A DNA stretch of 34,397 nucleotides from Solidesulfovibrio aerotolerans (GTDB taxonomy: Bacteria > Desulfobacterota > Desulfovibrionia > Desulfovibrionales > Desulfovibrionaceae), in the NCBI RefSeq assembly GCF_009856865.1, contig NZ_WVUD01000040.1, positions 1 to 34,397 of the forward strand. Direction: 5' to 3'. The notes beneath the pieces are model-generated. The model was given only the letters and a program-made list of their open reading frames with translations, ran no database searches and was not told the DNA's origin. The position numbers were made by a program, and so were the translations under genes. This document shows positions 1 through 25,907 of the stretch, piece after piece (the first letter of the stretch is position 1; each line of letters opens with the position of its first letter).

Positions 1-291
1 CTCGGTCGCCGCCAAGCGGTCCAGGCCGCCCTGGCCGAGCCGCCCCAGCCATGCGCTGTGGCCCCCCTGGCCGGGCTGGTTCACGATCTGGCCGCCGCCC
101 GGGGGCACGTTGCCGCCGCTGCCGCCGCCCTGGTCGCCAAAGAGCGCGCCCTGGCCGCGTTTGCCGAGGGCGTGGCCGAGCGTCTGGCTGCGCTCGGTGC
201 CTGTCCGCTGTGCGGCGGCGAACTTTCCACCACGTCCTTTTTGGAAGGCAGCCACCGCCATGCCCAACCGGGCGAGCCGGGGGCCTTGTGA
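1..291 (+). CDS. C-terminal end of a coiled-coil protein with zinc-hook-like CPLCGG (partial, 5' end outside window)
   Basis: The frame is open from base 1 and ends at TGA 289-291, giving 96 visible residues; the start lies outside the window. The fragment is Ala/Leu/Glu-rich and heptad-like, then reads LGACPLCGGEL about 33 residues before the stop. CxxC after a coiled coil is the pattern of the Rad50/SbcC zinc hook. The stop overlaps the GTG start of a Mre11-like phosphoesterase, so the two are translationally coupled. Since the ATPase gene at 1572 has signature and Walker B motifs but no Walker A, I infer that this gene carries the N-lobe with Walker A upstream. The larger ORF beginning at 51 in another frame overlaps this C-terminus and is not the real start of the next gene. 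Function is inferred from context; the ATPase motif itself is not visible here. Confidence 0.7.
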   Translation, partial: LGRRQAVQAALAEPPQPCAVAPLAGLVHDLAAARGHVAAAAAALVAKERALAAFAEGVAERLAALGACPLCGGELSTTSFLEGSHRHAQPGEPGAL

Positions 292-1241
292 GCCTGCCGG
301 TGCGCCAGGCCCGGGGGCTGCTCCTTATCCCCGATCCCCACGTGGCCGCCACGCCGCCCATGCAGCGGCTTGATTCCTACATGGACGACGTTTTGGCCAA
401 GCTGGCCGCCTGTCTGGACCACGCCGCCGCCGAGGAACTCGTGCCCGTGGTTTTGGGCGATCTGTTCCACTGGCCGCGCGAGAATCCCAACGTGGTCATG
501 GTGGCGCTCATTGAGCTTTTCCGGGAGCATCACCCGTATGTGCTGGTCGGCAACCACGACAAGTATCAGGCGCGCTTTACGGCCGATACGTCGTTGGCCG
601 TGCTGCGCGCCGCCGGGGTGTGTGCGGTGCTGGACGAACCGGGCCTGTTCCTGCGTCTGGAGACGCCTGATGGCCCGGCTGTCATTGGCGCGTCACCGGA
701 TGGTTCGGCCCTGCCGATGTCGGTGGCCAAGGAGCCCGGCGAAGCGAGCGTGTGGCTGACACACCACAATGTGGGGTTCCCGGATTTTTTGGACAAGCAC
801 GTCAAAATTCGGGAAATCCCGGGCCTGGACTGGGTGATAAACGGCCACATCCACCGGCCCCAGCCAACGGTTGCGGCCGGGATGACCCGCTGGGCCAATC
901 CGGGCAATGTGACCCGGCTCAAATTTTCCCGCCGCTCCATGGAGCGCGTCCCGGCCGCTGCGATCTGGCGGCCCGGGCTTACCGATCTGGTCGTGTGGCC
1001 TGTGCCGCACCGGCCCTTTGCCGCTGTTTTTCCCGACCAGGAACTGCCGCCGGAAGAGAGCGCCCCGGCCGAGGTCCAGTCCGGCTTTCTCGAAGGTCTG
1101 GCCCGGCTGGCCTGGAAGCGCACCCGCGAAGGGGCCGGATTGCAGGAATTTTTGCGCGCTAATCTTAACCCCGAGCACCCGGAATCCGCCCTTATCTGGG
1201 AGCTGTACCGCGAGGTCACCGATCATGCCGACGCCGACTAA
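288..1241 (+). CDS. Mre11/SbcD-like calcineurin-type metallophosphoesterase
   Basis: A 317-residue protein with the phosphoesterase metal motifs in order: DPH at residues 16-18, GDLFHW from 57, GNHDK at 88-92, HH at 159-160 and GHIHRP from 186. DxH, GD, GNHD, H and GHxH together form the two-metal site of Mre11/SbcD and related nucleases or phosphodiesterases. I chose GTG 288 because it overlaps the previous stop (GTGA) and the fold begins immediately after it; the longer frame back to 51 runs over the end of the upstream gene. The C-terminal 100 residues are less conserved and could act as a capping or ATPase-binding region. The gene overlaps the next one by 17 bases. Position between a hook-bearing protein and an ABC ATPase lobe suggests a DNA-end-processing nuclease partner. 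An RNA- or nucleotide-phosphoesterase role is possible. Confidence 0.85.
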   Translation: MSLPVRQARGLLLIPDPHVAATPPMQRLDSYMDDVLAKLAACLDHAAAEELVPVVLGDLFHWPRENPNVVMVALIELFREHHPYVLVGNHDKYQARFTADTSLAVLRAAGVCAVLDEPGLFLRLETPDGPAVIGASPDGSALPMSVAKEPGEASVWLTHHNVGFPDFLDKHVKIREIPGLDWVINGHIHRPQPTVAAGMTRWANPGNVTRLKFSRRSMERVPAAAIWRPGLTDLVVWPVPHRPFAAVFPDQELPPEESAPAEVQSGFLEGLARLAWKRTREGAGLQEFLRANLNPEHPESALIWELYREVTDHADAD

Positions 1242-1542
1242 GGTCGTTGCCGCCGATGCCGACGCCAGCCTGGAACGCGAACTGGCTGGCCTTAAAAATA
1301 CCTATGATCGTCTGCGCGACGACAAGGTGCGCACCGAGCAGGATTTGCGCCACCAGCAAAACCAGCTCGCCGAACTCGAAGCCAAAGCCCGGGCCGACTA
1401 CGGCACGGCCGAACCCGAGGAACTGGCCCGGCTGCTGGACGAAAAGCGTCGGGAAAATGCGCGCTTGGTGGCCGAATACCGCGAGCACATCGCAGCCGTG
1501 CGGCGCGACCTCGACGCCGTGGAGCAGGATTTTGGCGTCTGA
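1225..1542 (+). CDS. small coiled-coil protein of the Mre11-like operon
   Basis: A 105-residue acidic/basic helical protein. After a short Ala/Asp-rich start it consists almost wholly of heptad-like sequence (LERELAGLKNTYDRL, LRHQQNQLAELEAKA, LARLLDEKRRENARL, VRRDLDAVEQDF), so a long coiled coil is expected. The ATG at 1225 lies inside the end of the phosphoesterase gene (17-base overlap), indicating coupling. No enzymatic motif is seen. In single-chain Rad50/SbcC proteins a coiled-coil arm separates the two ATPase lobes; here a free-standing coiled coil between nuclease and C-lobe could supply part of that arm or bridge subunits. That role is inference only. Confidence 0.75.
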   Translation: MPTPTKVVAADADASLERELAGLKNTYDRLRDDKVRTEQDLRHQQNQLAELEAKARADYGTAEPEELARLLDEKRRENARLVAEYREHIAAVRRDLDAVEQDFGV

Positions 1543-1571
1543 TCTTTTTGGCGTTTCGGCTGGAGACGGGT

Positions 1572-2333
1572 ATGTCGCCTGACGCGTCGCCTGATCTGGG
1601 CGAGTTGGGCGGGCTTAACGACCGGCCCACTCTGGCCGTCCTGGCCGAGGAGCGCCAGGAACTGACGCGCCGGCTCGACCGCCTGTCCGGGCAGGCCGCT
1701 GCCAAGGCCGAGGCCTATATCGAGTCGCGCGGGCAACTGCTCGCCGCCGACGCCTTCCTCGACCTCGCCCCCCAGGCCGCCGCGCGCCTGGAAGAACTCA
1801 CCCGGGAACTGTTCGGCGAAGTGCTGGACGAAATCGAAACCGATCTGACCCACGCCGTGCGCGAAATCCTTGGCCAAAATCGCACCGTCGTCACCCGGCG
1901 CGAAGTCAAAAACGGCAAGCTCGTCATCGAATTCGAGATGGAACAGGACGGCAAGACCGAAGATATCTACGTCGGTCAGGGCGGCTCGGTCTGTAACATC
2001 CTGTCCGTGGGGCTGCGGCTGGTGGCGCTCTCCCAACTCGACCCCGACCGCCACCGGCCGTTTCTCGTGCTGGACGAACAGGACTGCTGGCTGCGCCCGG
2101 ACCTCGTGCCCGGTTTCGTGCGCCTCATAAGCGCCATAGCCGACCGGCTCGGTATCCAGGTGCTCTACATCAGCCATCATCCCGTCGATCTCTTTGCCCT
2201 GGAAGCCCGGCGCGTCTTCGGCCTGCGCCCGGGCCGCGAACACGGCCCCACCCTCGCCGTCCTGGCCGACCGACCAATCCACGCCCACGGCACCGTAACG
2301 CTACCGGGCCTGACCGCCCCAGGCGGTGAATAA
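1572..2333 (+). CDS. ABC/SMC-type ATPase C-terminal lobe without a Walker A
   Basis: A 253-residue protein. Residues 20-100 are helical and coiled-coil-like. They are followed by a lobe with GQGGS (135-139) and NILSVGLRLVAL, equivalent to an ABC signature helix, a Walker B-like FLVLDE (164-169), and an H-loop-like SHH (201-203) after a Leu/Ile-rich strand. This matches the C-lobe of Rad50/SbcC and phage recombination ATPases. No P-loop GxxxxGK[ST] occurs in this protein or elsewhere in the visible operon. ATG 1572 is chosen for its GGAGA about 6 bases upstream; an in-frame TTG at 1548 lacks this. Residues 170-171 are QD where many relatives have PF. Likely partner of the upstream hook-bearing protein, completing a nucleotide-binding site in trans. 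Confidence 0.75.
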   Translation: MSPDASPDLGELGGLNDRPTLAVLAEERQELTRRLDRLSGQAAAKAEAYIESRGQLLAADAFLDLAPQAAARLEELTRELFGEVLDEIETDLTHAVREILGQNRTVVTRREVKNGKLVIEFEMEQDGKTEDIYVGQGGSVCNILSVGLRLVALSQLDPDRHRPFLVLDEQDCWLRPDLVPGFVRLISAIADRLGIQVLYISHHPVDLFALEARRVFGLRPGREHGPTLAVLADRPIHAHGTVTLPGLTAPGGE

Positions 2334-5411: not shown

Positions 5412-6904
5412 AAGAAGAGGTTCCTGAACCGGGCGAACAGGGTCATCGCCTCGGTTGTGGCGTCGGGTTGGGAGAATTTGTGGTTGGCCTCGGCCCGGGC
5501 CTCGAAAATGGCCTTGACGCGGTCCACCACAACCGGATGCCGCGTCAGTACCATGCGAAAGCCTTCCCGGTCCACCACCAGACAGGCCGTGGGCTCCAGG
5601 GCGCGCACATCGGCGGCCCGGGGTTCGCCGGTCAAAAGAGCCATCTCGCCAAAGATCTGTCCCGCCGCCAGTTGGGCCACCTCCCGCCCGCCCACGAAGA
5701 CGCCGACCAGCCCGGACAAAATGATGTTCATGGTGGTTCCGGTCTCGCCCTGGGCCATGACGGTCTGGCCCGGGGAGAAGGTCCGGGTGACCGAAGCCCG
5801 CATCAGCATGTGCAGATCCGTCTCGGACATGCCGGCCAGCAGCTTGACCTCGGCCAGGGCCGTCAGTTGCTCCGGGGGGGGCAGCTTGCGCTCGGCCCGC
5901 TCGGTCATAACGATCTGGCGCGTGGGGGCGGGAATGACGATGCCGTGCTCCATGAACTGGTACCAGATGGCGGCAAGCACGGCGTCGGCTGCGGCGAGGC
6001 GGCCGTTGAAAGCGGCGATGTAATAGACCGCGATGTAGACGATGCGGTCAGGCTGGATTTCCTGGAGCCGGGCGGCCGGAGCCGGGTCGCGCAGCACGCC
6101 CTCGGCCCGGCGCAGGGCGGTTAAAATGGCCGATTTGACGGCCACGGGCGGCGCATCCACCGGAGCCGGCACACTGACGATCTGGCGCAGATGGGAAGCC
6201 GGCCGGTCGTAGTTGACCAGGCGCTCCTTGGCCACGACGTTGTTGGGCAAAAGCACGGCGTTGGCGTCCAGGGTGATCACCTTGGTGTAGCGCCAGGTCA
6301 CTTCCGTCACCTTGCCTTCCACGTCGCCCACGCGAATCCAGTCGCCTTCGGCAAAGGGCTTTTCCATTTGCAGCAGCAGCCCGGAAAACAGGCTGCCGAT
6401 GGTGTCCTGCATGGACAGACCGATGACGGCGGTGAGAATGGCCGACGAGGTCAAAAGCGGTCCGAGCTGGACGTTGAGAATATCGCGCAGCCCCCAGCCG
6501 ATAAGAACGGCCAGGATCAGGAATTTGGTGAGATCCTGGAGGATATGGCGCACGGGTTTGCCGTCGCCCCGGACCGGGGAGATTTTGAGGAAGACGAGAT
6601 CCACGCTGTGGCGGGCGATCATCCAGAAAACCACCAGGGCAGCCAGGGAAAAGGCTTTCTCCCCGCTGCCGGCCACCGCGTCGGGCAGGCTCCACTGCGC
6701 CCCCCAGAGCAGAGCCAGGCCGCAAAGCCACTTGACGAGCCGGCCAAACGAGCGGCTAATGGCCCCCCGGCGGGTCAGCAGGCGCAGCACGGCGGCTATA
6801 ATCGCAAAGAGGATCAGGGCCACGAGCAGGCGCACGCCCACGGTGAGGGCGGCGTGGCTTATGCCGGTGAAGTCGGCGAGCAGTTGCAGGGGGCCTGTGG
6901 TCAA
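5408..6904 (-). CDS. MscS-type mechanosensitive channel with C-terminal cyclic-nucleotide-binding domain
   Basis: A 498-residue inner-membrane channel. It has four or so N-terminal membrane helices (about 20-42, 57-70, 84-100, 125-143). The MscS pore and beta domain follow at 150-290, with SSAILTAVIGLSMQDTIGS as the pore helix and FAEGDWIRVGDVEGKVTEV as the beta-domain signature. Residues 350-470 are a cNMP-binding domain with FGEMALLTGEPRAADV, keeping the Glu (about 419) and Arg (427) of the phosphate-binding cassette. This architecture resembles the bCNG group, so gating by cAMP or cGMP is plausible. The start is TTG at 6902-6904 behind AAGGAG; no better ATG is available. The downstream membrane-protein gene overlaps by four bases. 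Confidence 0.9.
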   Translation of the reverse strand: MTTGPLQLLADFTGISHAALTVGVRLLVALILFAIIAAVLRLLTRRGAISRSFGRLVKWLCGLALLWGAQWSLPDAVAGSGEKAFSLAALVVFWMIARHSVDLVFLKISPVRGDGKPVRHILQDLTKFLILAVLIGWGLRDILNVQLGPLLTSSAILTAVIGLSMQDTIGSLFSGLLLQMEKPFAEGDWIRVGDVEGKVTEVTWRYTKVITLDANAVLLPNNVVAKERLVNYDRPASHLRQIVSVPAPVDAPPVAVKSAILTALRRAEGVLRDPAPAARLQEIQPDRIVYIAVYYIAAFNGRLAAADAVLAAIWYQFMEHGIVIPAPTRQIVMTERAERKLPPPEQLTALAEVKLLAGMSETDLHMLMRASVTRTFSPGQTVMAQGETGTTMNIILSGLVGVFVGGREVAQLAAGQIFGEMALLTGEPRAADVRALEPTACLVVDREGFRMVLTRHPVVVDRVKAIFEARAEANHKFSQPDATTEAMTLFARFRNLFL

Positions 6905-7117: not shown

Positions 7118-7942
7118 GTGTCGAAAAAAAAAGCAGAGCGTCCCGAGCCGGCCAGCCTGGGGCTGCCCCGGGTCGGGGTCGAGAGCCATGCCCATCTGGA
7201 TGGCGAAGGTTTTTCGCCGGAAGAGATTCCGGCTGTCCTTGAGCGGGCGGCAGGAGCCGGCATCGCCCAGGTGGGCAACGTCTATCTGGGGCCGGCGGCC
7301 TATGCGGCCGGCCGGGGGCTTTTTGCCGGCCACCCCGAGGTCTTTGGCATCCTGGGGCAGCATCCCTGCGATGCGGCCACAGCCGTCCCCGGCGATGTGG
7401 CGGCCATGGAAGCGGCCTTTCGGGCCGACGGTAACTTAAAGGCCGTGGGCGAGATCGGGCTCGACTACTACTGGGACGCGACCACGGCCGAGGTTCAAAA
7501 GCGGCTTTTTCGCGACCAGCTCGCCCTGGCCCGGGAACTGGCGCTGCCGGCGGTCATCCACAGCCGCGACGCCGCTGCCGACACCCTGGCGATCCTGGAC
7601 GACCTGGGCTTTGCCGGCCGGCCGCTGGTGTGGCACTGCTTTGGCGGCGACGCCGCCCTGGCCCGGGAAATCGCCCGGCGCGGCTTTTACTTTTCCATCC
7701 CCGGGCCGGTGACCTATCGCAAGAATACCGCCCTGGCCGAGGCCGTGGCCGGCCTTGATCCCACGCGGCTGCTCCTGGAAACCGACGCCCCCTATCTGAC
7801 CCCCGAGCCTTGGCGCGGCAAGCGCAACGAACCGGCCCTGCTGGTCTTTACGGCCGCCCGCGTGGCGGCGTTGCTGGGCTTGGAGACGGCTGCGCTGTGG
7901 CGGCAGACCGGCGACAACGCCCGGGCCTTTTTCGGTCTGTAA
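7118..7942 (+). CDS. TatD-family metal-dependent hydrolase
   Basis: A 274-residue TIM-barrel hydrolase of the TatD/YcfH DNase type. It shows ESHAHLD with the HxH metal pair, GEIGLDYYWD with the catalytic Glu, HSRDA, HCFGG and ETDAPYLTPEPWRGK near the end, all in the family order. The known family acts as a 3'-5' exonuclease or deoxyribonuclease, or in tRNA-like hydrolysis. GTG 7118 is chosen because GGAG lies about 9 bases before it; the frame remains open far upstream, but that portion is antisense to the channel gene. A run of nine A residues (7124-7132) directly follows the start, encoding three Lys codons. The gene stands alone. Confidence 0.9.
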   Translation: MSKKKAERPEPASLGLPRVGVESHAHLDGEGFSPEEIPAVLERAAGAGIAQVGNVYLGPAAYAAGRGLFAGHPEVFGILGQHPCDAATAVPGDVAAMEAAFRADGNLKAVGEIGLDYYWDATTAEVQKRLFRDQLALARELALPAVIHSRDAAADTLAILDDLGFAGRPLVWHCFGGDAALAREIARRGFYFSIPGPVTYRKNTALAEAVAGLDPTRLLLETDAPYLTPEPWRGKRNEPALLVFTAARVAALLGLETAALWRQTGDNARAFFGL

Positions 7943-21931: not shown

Positions 21932-22588
21932 TTACGCCTTGGGGTAGCCCACACACTGGGCCATGATCACCCGCTGGTTGGCCGGCAACCCCATGGCCTT
22001 GGACAGGGCCGGGATGTCGATGCTGGCCCGCACCACCGTGCCAAGACCCATGACGGCGCAATAGAGATAGACGTTCTGGCTGATATACCCGGTGTCGGCC
22101 CAGGCCAGATTGGACTTTTCTTCCTCGGTCTTGCCCGCGACCTTGCCCATATCCGCCACATAGACCAGATCAAGGGGAGCGGTGGGGACGTAGCTCTGGG
22201 TGCCTGTCAGCGCCCGGATGTCCGCGTCACCCTTGGGCACAAGGGCGTGCTCTTTGGCGTCGTAGACGAAAAAACCGTCCTTTTTGGCCACCCAGACGTC
22301 GATTTCCTGTTTATTGACCGCGCTTGGCGCGGTGCGCTTGCCGGTTTCCTTGCGGTTGATGCCGCAGGCGGCCCAGAGCAGTCCCGAAAGCACCTCTCCC
22401 GGCACGTCCTTTTCCGCGTAGCTGCGTATCGATTGCCTGGCCCGAAGGGCTTCTTCCAGGGTCTTGCCGCCCGGCAGGGACGGCGGCGGCAGGATTTCGC
22501 TTTTCTGCGCGAAGGCCGCTTTATTGCCGACGAGTCCCAGGCCGACGCACAGCGCCCCGGCCGAACGTATAAAGGTTCTTCTGTCCAC
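21932..22588 (-). CDS. Tat-exported nitroreductase-family protein (SagB-like)
   Basis: A 218-residue protein with a twin-arginine signal MDRRTFIRSAGALCVGLGLVG and AFA cleavage near residue 27. The mature part is an FMN nitroreductase fold: RARQSIRSYAEKDV (residues 49-61) matches the RxSxRxY FMN motif, LLWAACGINRKETGKRTAPSAVNKQEIDV covers the active-site loop, and YISQNVYLYCAVMGLGTVVRA covers the dimer helix. Export of such a flavoprotein to the periplasm by Tat as a folded, cofactor-loaded enzyme is unusual but seen in anaerobes. GTG 22588 has AAGGAG about 7 bases upstream. Substrate unknown. Confidence 0.88.
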   Translation of the reverse strand: MDRRTFIRSAGALCVGLGLVGNKAAFAQKSEILPPPSLPGGKTLEEALRARQSIRSYAEKDVPGEVLSGLLWAACGINRKETGKRTAPSAVNKQEIDVWVAKKDGFFVYDAKEHALVPKGDADIRALTGTQSYVPTAPLDLVYVADMGKVAGKTEEEKSNLAWADTGYISQNVYLYCAVMGLGTVVRASIDIPALSKAMGLPANQRVIMAQCVGYPKA

Positions 22589-22763
22589 AGGGTACTCCTT
22601 GTAAGGCCTGGCCGGCCTCTTCCGAGGCAGGGTAGAAGTCCTGCGGGAGGAAGTCCAGCCGCGCAGGAGGGGAGCGCCGTCCGGGCCATTTGGATTGCAA
22701 CGCGGCCATGTTTGGCAATCCCTGTGGGACACCGGGGGCATTGCAGTGAATGGCGTCCGCTCT

Positions 22764-25700
22764 CTAGCCACCCATGGTCACGTTGTGGCCCAGCAGCCGT
22801 TCTTCCATATTAAACGATTCAGCCGCCGGATAGCGGCTGGCCAGTTCTTGCAGGTCGTTTAAATAGCGGTGGGCATGGCTGAGATAAAAAGACAGGGCCG
22901 GGGCGAATTTGCGTCCCACCAGTCCCTCGATAAACAACCGGCTGATTTCCCGTTCCCGCAAAAGCACGTACTGCGACAACAAAAACATCCGTCGCTCTTC
23001 CTGGGACATGGTGCGGATGGCCCGGGCCAACACCGTGCGCGCCCGGGGCTGGTACATCCAGAAATAGAGAAAATCCAAGGCATTGACGATGACGATTTTG
23101 TCCAGGTCGCCCTTTTGGGTGCCGATGGAGGCTATAAACGTTTTGGGCGTTTCCAGGAGTTTGGCCACGTCCTCGTTGGGGTAGAGTAATTCCAAGAGGG
23201 CATAGGTGTCATAGAGTTGCTTGAATTTTTCGCGGTAATCCCGCAGCCGCATGCGCACATACTTGGCCCGGTCGGCCAACCCTTCAATGACGGCGGCCAC
23301 GCAGTCTGAGGCGAACTTGGAAACAATGGCGGCAAACGGTTCCAGGGTCGGCCCCGGATCGGGCACCCCGCCAAGGGCCAGGAGCCAGCTCAGCCCTTGG
23401 TTCAGGCCAAAGGCCAGGGGAATGGACAGGACCGAGCGGAACAGGTTGCCAACGGCGGCCGATTTGGGCAGCCCGCGCACCAGATTGTGGCTGGCCAGAT
23501 ACAGGCCGTTGGCCACGGCCATGCAGGCGAAAAGGACCAGGGGCCGGCTGGAGGTGGTGATGCCGAACTGTTGGGCCAGCACAAGCTGGCGCACCACGAT
23601 GTCTAAAAGCGGCACGGAAAATCCGGTGTAGAGCAGCGAATCGGCCAGCCGGTCAAAGCTGACGTAGGCCTTCCAGGTGAGCAGCGGCGAGCGGCGCAGA
23701 CCGCCGCAGCCGAGCACGGCCTGGATGACGTTGCGCACCCCGGTGATGCCAAACCAGATAAACGGCCCCAGCCAGGCCAGCACCCACCAGGAATTGATGC
23801 TGGCAAAGGAGGCGGCGGCCACGGCAAAGCCCAAGCCGATTTTCAGCGCGTTTTTTAGCGTTGTGCTCAAATGCCGCCCGGACAGGCGCAAGGGCCGACG
23901 CTGCGCCTCGGCCCGGCCCAGGAACCGCTGGCTGGCCTTTTGCTGGATGCCGCCCAGGGTGTGGATATTGGCGGTGGCCGGCGTGGCCTTGAAAAAGCGC
24001 TGGGCGATCCAGTCAAAGCGGGTGCGGTAGCCGGCCAGACGCAAGCCGGGCAGGCCGCGCAGGAAGCGATAGCAGCGGGCTGTGGCGGCGCTTGGAAAAT
24101 CATCGGGCAGGGCGCTTAACCGGGGGGTGGCGGCAACGCCCACCGGGATGGCCCGGCGCAGGCTGGAGTCGGGCTGTTTTCCCCGCCGGGCCAGCCGTTT
24201 GCGCGCCCGGGGCGGCAGGGTGTCGGCCACCACCAGCCCCATGCCGTGGCAGCGGGTGGACTGGCCGGTGGAGTCCGTGCCGATGCGGGCGGTGATCGGG
24301 CTTTGCCGGTAGGCCCCGGCCAGGGCGGCCACCTCCTGGCGCAGCTCGCGCAGTTGCCCGGCCAGGGCCGCGTTGCCGGCGGCTTCGACGCTGTCGGCGG
24401 TGCGGGTGAGCAGGCGCTTGAGCGCCACCACATTGCCGGCGTTTAAGATGGAAACCAGTTCCAGCGCCTCGCCGCCGTCGCTGCCCCCGGTCTCGAACAC
24501 ACGCAGGTTAAAGGCGTCGCAGTCGGTGATGCGCCCCCGGCAGGCAAAAAGCGTCAGCAAGACATCGGGCAGAGGCATCTCGGCCGTGCACAGGGCCAGA
24601 CTGTTGTTGTAATGCAGCTCGGCAATGCGGCCCGTCAGTTCGCCCGGGGTGATGGTCAGGCGTTCGGGCGGCGTTTCGCCCGGGGCGGTTGCTTCCGGGG
24701 CCAGGATGTCGGGATTGGCGGCCGGGGAAAGATAGGCGTCGAGCAGGGCTTCCACATCGAGGCTGTCGCGTTCGGCCAGATAGGCGCAGGCCTTGCCCGG
24801 TGCGGTCTGGTCCAGGGTTTGGGCGGCCTGGGCGTTTAAAAGCGGCAGCAGGCAGTCGTGGATGTAGCGGGCCAGATGCAGGACACTGGCCTGGCCCGAG
24901 CCGACAAAGGCCAGAAATTCTTCGTGGTCCAAAGGCTCCAAGGCCAGGTTGAACTGTTCCCGGATGGTGTGGCGGTGGCGGGCGTTAAAAGCTTCCAGCA
25001 GGGCCAGGACATAGCGTTGCTGGCGAAGGGTGAGCTCAAAGCCTTCCCGCATGAAGTCGCGCACGCCGGGTTTTTTCAGGAAAGCGGTAAAATCCTCGGG
25101 CCGGGCAAAGCCGCGCGGCGTCCAGACGATCTTCAGGTGCCCCTCGCCGTGGCGGGCCAGGCATTCGATGCCCAGATCCACGCTCATGTCCATGATGGCG
25201 GCCGCTTCCAGGAGTTCGGCAGCGGTTTCCGGGCGCACGAAGTGGTAGTGGATGACGGTCAGCCGGCGGATGCCCTTGATCCAGGCGTCCATGATGAGAT
25301 GGGTGGGCGATTTGCGGCCCTTGGTGTTGGCGTCGTGGACGTGGTCGTCAAAGGCGAGCTGGTTCCATGCCTCGGGCATTTCCAGGAGATGGTATTCGGC
25401 CAGGAGCCGGCGCACCACCCGGGGACGTCCGGAGACGGCGCTGCGGAAATCATGGGCCAGTTCCAGTTGGCGGCGGGGGGTGTCCCGGGAGCGCACCAGT
25501 TCCTTCATGGTTTGCAGCAGCACCCGGGCGGTGTTTTTTTCCAGGCCCGATTCCGCCGCAGCCATGACTTCGTCGCGCAGCGACCGCAGGGCCGCCAGCC
25601 GGTCGCCGGCCATGCCGGCTTCCAGCGATCCCAGCAGATGGATGACGGCGTAGGCGATGCGTAGTCCCTTGGGGGCCGCCATTTCCTTGATGCCGTGGGG

Positions 25701-25907
25701 ATGGAGATAGGGGGCGAGCAGCCGCTTGAAACCCGAGGAACGCTGCCGGGCCAGGACGTCGTTGACGATGCGCAGCAGCTCGTAATCGCCGGCGTCGAAA
25801 CACAGGCGTGACAGGAAGGTGCGCGGGACGCCATCGAGGGCATGGGAGCCGGCGTTGGTGTCGGGCAGCGGTGGCATGGCCGGGTCGGAAGTAGGTATTT
25901 GGCTCAT
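22764..25907 (-). CDS. 1047-residue membrane protein with a PHP-like domain
   Basis: Very large protein. Residues 1-180 are helical and soluble. Residues about 186-265 look like a divergent PHP metallo-hydrolase: DDHVHDANTKG at 187-197 with HVH, SPTHLIMDAWIKGIRRLTV, then VIHYH at 218-222 in place of TDH, then DLGIECL at 245-251 with a Glu. Later His-rich segments (HRHTI near 311) may complete it. From about 685 to 830 there are hydrophobic spans (LGFAVAAASFASI, WVLAWLGPFIWFGITGV, LLDIVVRQLVLAQ, LVLFACMAVANGLYLA, SVLSIPLAFGL), followed by 200 helical C-terminal residues. I do not recognise the overall family. ATG 25907 lies in an AT-rich region with a weak ribosome site. Confidence 0.85.
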   Translation of the reverse strand: MSQIPTSDPAMPPLPDTNAGSHALDGVPRTFLSRLCFDAGDYELLRIVNDVLARQRSSGFKRLLAPYLHPHGIKEMAAPKGLRIAYAVIHLLGSLEAGMAGDRLAALRSLRDEVMAAAESGLEKNTARVLLQTMKELVRSRDTPRRQLELAHDFRSAVSGRPRVVRRLLAEYHLLEMPEAWNQLAFDDHVHDANTKGRKSPTHLIMDAWIKGIRRLTVIHYHFVRPETAAELLEAAAIMDMSVDLGIECLARHGEGHLKIVWTPRGFARPEDFTAFLKKPGVRDFMREGFELTLRQQRYVLALLEAFNARHRHTIREQFNLALEPLDHEEFLAFVGSGQASVLHLARYIHDCLLPLLNAQAAQTLDQTAPGKACAYLAERDSLDVEALLDAYLSPAANPDILAPEATAPGETPPERLTITPGELTGRIAELHYNNSLALCTAEMPLPDVLLTLFACRGRITDCDAFNLRVFETGGSDGGEALELVSILNAGNVVALKRLLTRTADSVEAAGNAALAGQLRELRQEVAALAGAYRQSPITARIGTDSTGQSTRCHGMGLVVADTLPPRARKRLARRGKQPDSSLRRAIPVGVAATPRLSALPDDFPSAATARCYRFLRGLPGLRLAGYRTRFDWIAQRFFKATPATANIHTLGGIQQKASQRFLGRAEAQRRPLRLSGRHLSTTLKNALKIGLGFAVAAASFASINSWWVLAWLGPFIWFGITGVRNVIQAVLGCGGLRRSPLLTWKAYVSFDRLADSLLYTGFSVPLLDIVVRQLVLAQQFGITTSSRPLVLFACMAVANGLYLASHNLVRGLPKSAAVGNLFRSVLSIPLAFGLNQGLSWLLALGGVPDPGPTLEPFAAIVSKFASDCVAAVIEGLADRAKYVRMRLRDYREKFKQLYDTYALLELLYPNEDVAKLLETPKTFIASIGTQKGDLDKIVIVNALDFLYFWMYQPRARTVLARAIRTMSQEERRMFLLSQYVLLREREISRLFIEGLVGRKFAPALSFYLSHAHRYLNDLQELASRYPAAESFNMEERLLGHNVTMGG

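Follow-up and report, generated by a model that had tools for sequence, protein, structure and literature searches.

Rad50 and SMC ATPases are thought to work through one folded-back chain that links the two lobes of the head and the two coil strands via a hook or hinge. The closest described systems to the locus examined here are SbcCD and Mre11-Rad50 (TIGR00618, TIGR00619), which have a P-loop N-lobe, a CxxC hook, a C-lobe with Walker B and H-loop, and an adjacent Mre11-type nuclease. A Rad50 C-lobe occurs as a separate chain in a Pyrococcus crystal construct (1f2t/1f2u), in which the two lobes were reportedly produced as separate chains; it is a man-made truncation without arms or hook. SbcC and SbcD are treated as a co-occurring complex in PMC1193525. 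Rearranged Mre11-Rad50 systems, in viruses as well, appear in PMC3175470 as Mre11/Rad50 fusions (Mimivirus R555 and others), in which nuclease and ATPase share one chain, the opposite of the rearrangement considered below. Here, we analyze a 34,397-base stretch of Solidesulfovibrio aerotolerans (hereafter, the window), which begins with four genes that share the parts of SbcCD but differ in their arrangement: the Rad50-like chain comes in three pieces, the hook lies at a chain end, the nuclease gene stands between the pieces, the signature reads GQGGS, and the nuclease falls far under the SbcD cut-off.

Sequence comparison and structural modelling make it likely, in our judgement, that this locus encodes a four-subunit complex of the Mre11-Rad50 type, with the Rad50-like chain distributed over three proteins and with housekeeping work like that of SbcCD. 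The N-half (N) would supply the Walker A lobe, a helical arm and a C-terminal hook, the CC protein a short coiled coil, and the C-half (C) a short arm and the signature/Walker B lobe, with the gene of the nuclease (D) placed between N and CC. A first-pass annotation had already read the locus as a Rad50 split at its hook with the nuclease inserted, and had named two findings that would speak against it, namely the wrong motifs in gene 1 (a complete ATPase, or no P-loop at all) or a different fold for the 1572-2333 product. Neither turned up, with gene 1 judged from its relatives because the window's own N-terminus was not seen, and the reading is supported: all 53 complete N-halves end 15-34 residues past their last CxxC and carry no C-lobe beyond it, and the C-half models as an ABC/Rad50-type C-lobe, with the Rad50 C-lobe (1f2t/1f2u) as the closest structural match in a comparison by VIA-align. 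All four reading frames, tied by overlaps or short gaps, were recovered as annotated, and gene 1 does stop soon after CPLCGG (Table 1).

The window is the whole of contig C96, complete from base 1, in a 4.6-Mb assembly of 161 contigs, and gene 1 is therefore seen only at its 3' end. Its visible part is 69% identical over 90 residues to residues 400-489 of the 495-residue N-half of Desulfovibrio sp. DV, which carries the P-loop GPNNTGKS at residue 29. A P-loop stands at residue 29 or 30 in 53/53 complete N-halves (399 to 566 residues long), at least one histidine follows the hook in 51 of them, and HxH is found in 24. The Walker A lobe predicted for gene 1 is thus established in its relatives, while the window's own N-terminus was not seen. 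Against an alignment of canonical SbcC (11 sequences, 10 from the window's family and one from genome G435), the N profile aligned at the N-lobe with an HHalign probability of 97.7 (E 2e-12), and its hook end matched the solved Rad50 hooks 6zff (E 4e-4) and 1l8d (E 0.0015). Between lobe and hook, the five proteins inspected show L..L..PP turns spaced mostly by 36-42 residues and often by exactly 39. A search of the window's own assembly for the remainder of gene 1 returned only C96:1-270 and one weak match on contig C139, the latter being the P-loop region of a different gene. Among the stretches read from 14 genomes of the genus, nine contain a complete N-half, and the contig starts inside the N-half gene in G000, G007, G008 and G010 and inside the nuclease gene in G012. 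Counted by locus, four of the 14 genus assemblies (window position 1, L026, L008 and L013) begin a contig inside the N-half gene; a G+C-rich repeated N arm may hinder assembly.

The set is conserved well beyond the genus. A contig scan with the C-half alignment yielded 124 relatives, of which 80 loci were kept, from Desulfovibrionaceae, Syntrophobacteraceae (Desulfacinum), Desulfobacca, many Planctomycetota and two Clostridia/Bacillota metagenome-assembled genomes; the closest named locus is that of Desulfovibrio sp. DV, followed by Solidesulfovibrio. Coverage limits were passed by N in 53 of the 80, by the nuclease in 62, by CC in 71, by C in 79 and by all four in 50, the failing loci being truncated by contig ends, unlinked, or under the limits. 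The survey of gene order that the annotation had proposed gave N-D-CC-C in 50/50 loci with all four genes, with N and D overlapping in 42 of these 50, and D and CC overlapping in 51/62. Linkage is looser in some genomes. The C gene lies on the opposite strand about 5.5 kb off in G011 and G004, and among ten genomes without N at the C locus, a long N match was found elsewhere in six and nowhere in three, while G440, also one of the ten, has only the 3' end of N, at a contig edge. N, D and CC stand together in three genomes without N at the C locus and, with N represented by its 3' end, in G440; in G446, N stands alone. Where N and C are unlinked within one genome, assembly would have to take place in trans. 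In a sample of the phylum, 15/296 genomes, including the window's own, have a strong C-half match.

Gene decay or misassembly could in principle make a broken sbcC resemble a designed split, and a contig edge does fall inside gene 1 in the window and inside the corresponding gene in G007, G008 and G010. The same break point and gene set recur, however, across genera, phyla and phages, with open frames and invariant catalytic residues, whereas in the same family, canonical SbcC consists of a single chain with an internal hook. In control operons from that family, a single SbcC chain of 935-1102 residues carrying a P-loop, an internal CPLC and LSGGE adjoins sbcD in 10 of 11 cases, and the eleventh (L222) has one longer frame with the same motifs. 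Conservation refutes the decay explanation, which we reject as having next to no chance of being right. Rather, the split has the look of a long-established, functional design and not of a broken gene, since the same four-part set occurs in several bacterial phyla and in phages.

The nuclease had been called Mre11-like, and this identification stands. It matches Pfam Metallophos (E 5e-8), and its five phosphoesterase motifs are complete, with ligands D16, H18, D58, N89, H90, H159, H160, H187 and H189 invariant in 20 aligned homologues; SbcD and Mre11 head its PDB profile search (E 4e-4 to 4e-3). A conserved C-terminal stretch is present in the homologues. Against the NCBIfam SbcD model TIGR00619 it scored 15.9 bits, far under the cut-off of 77.65 bits. 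In a tree of 44 rows (20 split nucleases, 12 SbcD and 12 phage nucleases), built for the nuclease only and not for the lobes, a branch with support 100/99 sets the split nucleases and SbcD on separate sides; the phage rows are nearer to the split nucleases than to SbcD, with some long branches that leave their placement unsure.

The C-half has the motifs ascribed to it, namely GQGGS, FLVLDE and SHH, and a P-loop pattern was found in 0/79 of its relatives. Across an alignment of 67 rows, these motif positions vary little or not at all. GQGGS is present in 72/79 relatives and retains the two central glycines of LSGG[EQ], some form of LDE..CW is found at Walker B in 79/79, and the H-loop SHH likewise in 79/79. 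Each of the 14 genus genomes has a single C-lobe match. The title of entry 1us8 describes the signature motif as essential to ATP binding, and its variant form here may alter the closing of the heads by ATP. In the CC protein, two helical stretches flank a conserved YGT.DP..L turn, and a homologue with complete profile coverage stands between nuclease and C-lobe in 71/80 loci. Its derivation from the descending coil of SbcC was tried and rejected, as HHalign gave a probability of 3 and no significant relation; the best alignment sets the YGT..P..L turn on a similar post-hook turn of SbcC, which at that probability is a lead only.

Phage versions of the set were found by tblastn with the N-lobe, by a viral-contig scan with the phage C-lobe gp35, and by tblastn with the phage C-lobe; scanning viral contigs with the bacterial C-lobe alignment gave no relative. 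The N-lobe search led to Bacillus phage vB_BboS-125 (NC_048735.1), in which gp32 is a 471-residue N-half with the C-terminal end CPLCEQTHKGGGC, gp34 a 78-residue coil-type protein, gp35 a 211-residue C-lobe (C profile E 1e-8), and the unannotated kilobase after gp36 encodes a nuclease matched by the bacterial nuclease profile (E 1e-14). The phage thus shares the terminal-hook N-half, small coil-type protein, C-lobe and nuclease with the bacterial set but differs in its order (N-CC-C-D), in its signature (RGGG) and in having an AP2-domain protein, gp33, between N and CC. Members of the set fall in phrog_16465 ('exonuclease') and phrog_15167 ('ATPase'). The nuclease frame is L171:9256-9993, about 22432-23169 of NC_048735.1, where the public record has no annotated gene. 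The gp33 gene (L171:7407-7979) occupies the slot held by the nuclease in bacterial sets, and phmmer finds AP2-like genes at the same slot in some other phage loci.

Scanning viral contigs with gp35 gave 27 loci, the first of them vB_BboS-125 again and many of them close kin of each other. Across 28 phage loci, the order N, CC, C, nuclease on one strand was found in 28/28, as were the P-loop, the terminal CxxC and the four nuclease patterns tested. The bacterial CC profile matched none of the 28, and the phage CC was assigned by size, coil and position. This absence of profile matches, like the lack of a significant relation to the SbcC coil, would suit a CC that regulates or loads the complex and does not substitute for the missing coil. 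We give that idea an appreciable, though minority, share of our belief: bacterial loci and the 28 phage loci alike have a small coil-type gene next to that of the C-lobe, and the N arm would otherwise be without a partner.

Other phages show further arrangements. In Microcystis phage Mvi-JY20, four hypothetical proteins encoded side by side follow the bacterial order N-D-CC-C, with N ending shortly past CSQC and a weak CC match (E 0.015), and in an uncultured 485-kb phage a stretch of about 8 kb contains N, D and C. In Microbacterium phage Magritte, the 7 kb examined encode a C-lobe-like protein and showed neither N nor CC nor a nuclease. The small ATPases of Paenibacillus phages PG1 and Lilo were set aside: only the N-like part of Lilo matched the N profile (E 2e-12), and none matched the C, CC or nuclease profiles. 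Two Lilo genes (315 and 219 residues) correspond to the single 542-residue ATPase of PG1, without a CxxC hook (L172:5995-7623, L173:5995-7623), and this phage ATPase, too, exists as two chains in one genome and as a single chain in the other.

The distribution of the set bears on its function. Counting matches at E < 1e-40 for N and C and E < 1e-30 for SbcC, with weaker matches excluded, 47 of 119 family genomes have a strong C-half and 45 of these 47 a strong N-half; the remaining two are the window's genome and G018, in both of which N is truncated by a contig edge. Strong SbcC is present in 24 of the 119 and above-cut-off SbcD in 21, none of them among the 47. This exclusion has a Fisher probability of 1e-6 by genome and a hypergeometric probability of 0.002 by genus (18 versus 10 of 44 genera), both uncorrected for kinship. 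At E <= 0.001, the counts are 93 genomes for N, 48 for C and 69 for SbcC. SbcC may be undercounted because the search scored only six first-look candidates per genome; SbcC matches reach the curated cut-off in 0/119 family genomes, and the clear SbcC of L213 is also under it. In the window's own genome, TIGR00618 and TIGR00619 gave no match at E 0.001. Judged from sequence, the housekeeping work of SbcCD is most likely done by the split set where it is present.

The same head-and-nuclease complex could instead serve immunity or the biology of mobile elements. Mre11-Rad50-like ATPase-nuclease pairs are known from defence (e.g., Lamassu), the set also occurs in phages and prophages, and the C-half gives weak partial PADLOC matches, the best at E 0.003 to mad8. 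A defence role nevertheless strikes us as improbable, given that the set appears as a single match in each of 14/14 genus genomes and never alongside strong SbcC in the 119 family genomes, and that no PADLOC match to the window proteins fell under E 0.001 in a search with a threshold of 1.

Several observations weigh against a housekeeping, Rad50-derived complex. The co-occurrence statistics leave genome relatedness uncorrected, neither the split set nor SbcCD was detected in 16/44 family genera, and an SbcC-like protein is also present in 2/26 chosen split genomes, so that the exclusion is not strict outside the family. The window's own P-loop was not seen in its assembly. The N arm, organized in units of about 39 residues, is longer than the C arm and CC together, and being broken into units as well, it cannot form a complete canonical antiparallel coil with them. 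The signature GQGGS stands in place of LSGGE and departs from LSGG[EQ]. The C-half profile shows no significant match to SbcC (HHalign probability 0.4), nor did the C-lobe profile with filters off among 25 SbcC/SbcD sequences, and the C-lobe assignment therefore rests on the model, the SMC profile matches and the motifs. It is SMC C-lobes that the C-half profile matches in a genome search (E 2e-6 to 1e-4), and at the head end of N, SMC6 (E 1e-7) is the best PDB match, ahead of Rad50 heads (E 4e-6).

These last matches would fit an ATPase with an SMC-type head, not derived from Rad50, that recruited a Mre11-like nuclease and a hook and would hold or loop DNA with the nuclease as an accessory. 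In hmmsearch of SMC-like open reading frames, no C-half match appeared at E 0.01, while with filters off the values were E 3e-8 to 6e-7; three of the frames matched are SMC by NCBIfam. SMC proteins, whose heads both profiles match, differ from the split set in having a hinge and one chain and in lacking a Mre11 partner. We regard an SMC origin as unlikely.

If the locus does encode a split Mre11-Rad50-type complex, N and C would pair as one composite ABC head, two such heads would close on ATP, and a nuclease dimer would sit on them. The hooks would join two N arms through a metal. CC may pack against the N arm where the descending coil is missing; together with the C helix, it would supply a second coil strand close to hook and head. 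Such a complex would be expected to cut blocked ends and hairpins in an ATP-dependent manner, as SbcCD does. Coordinates of the four genes and their motifs are given in Table 1.

Table 1. Genes and motifs of the split set in the window (positions in bases)
Feature	Position	Strand	Remarks
N-half gene, 3' end (last 96 codons)	1..291	+	Open frame truncated by contig edge; Walker A part beyond contig
Hook motif CPLCGG of N-half	202..219	+	Residues 68-73 of visible part, 23 residues before C-terminus
Mre11/SbcD-like nuclease (D)	288..1241	+	GTG start; 4-base overlap with gene 1
Nuclease motifs	DPH 333-341, GDLFH 456-470, GNHD 549-560, HH 762-767, GHIH 843-854	+	
CC, 105-residue coiled-coil protein	1225..1542	+	17-base overlap with nuclease gene
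C-half, 253 residues, no Walker A	1572..2333	+	29-base gap after CC; helix residues 21-100, then ABC C-lobe
Signature-like GQGGS of C-half	1974..1988	+	Residues 135-139
Walker B FLVLDE of C-half, then QDCW	2061..2078	+	Residues 164-169
H-loop SHH of C-half	2172..2180	+	Residues 201-203

Elsewhere in the window, a 1047-codon open frame (22764-25907, minus strand) has no Pfam match at E 1e-5, and a TatD-type DNase (7184-7939, plus strand) forms the end of a 583-codon frame starting at 6191, the real gene being probably much shorter.

We class the split set as a Mre11-Rad50 variant outside the SbcC and SbcD families, since four tests came out negative, those for a one-chain architecture, for the signature, for a sequence match over the C-lobe and for the SbcD cut-off; unlike Rad50 and SbcC, it keeps lobes and coil strands in separate and sometimes unlinked genes. 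Among the matches listed in the open-access full-text literature, there was no paper on a split Rad50 or SbcC. A bolder proposal, to which we attach a little less than an even chance, is that it forms a separate old Mre11-Rad50-like class whose arm is permanently severed at the hook. Its N, CC and C would come together in trans, CC would serve as a strut or gate that can be removed, and arm length would be set by the number of units of about 39 residues. Such a class, shared with phages, would have replaced or preceded SbcCD in whole bacterial lineages.

A natural version cut at the turn would reveal which covalent links are dispensable and would offer a direct test of communication between hook and head. 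The set also suggests a function for phage proteins recorded as exonuclease, ATPase, chromosome segregation or hypothetical protein, and it suggests how some Desulfovibrionaceae without detectable SbcCD may process broken ends.
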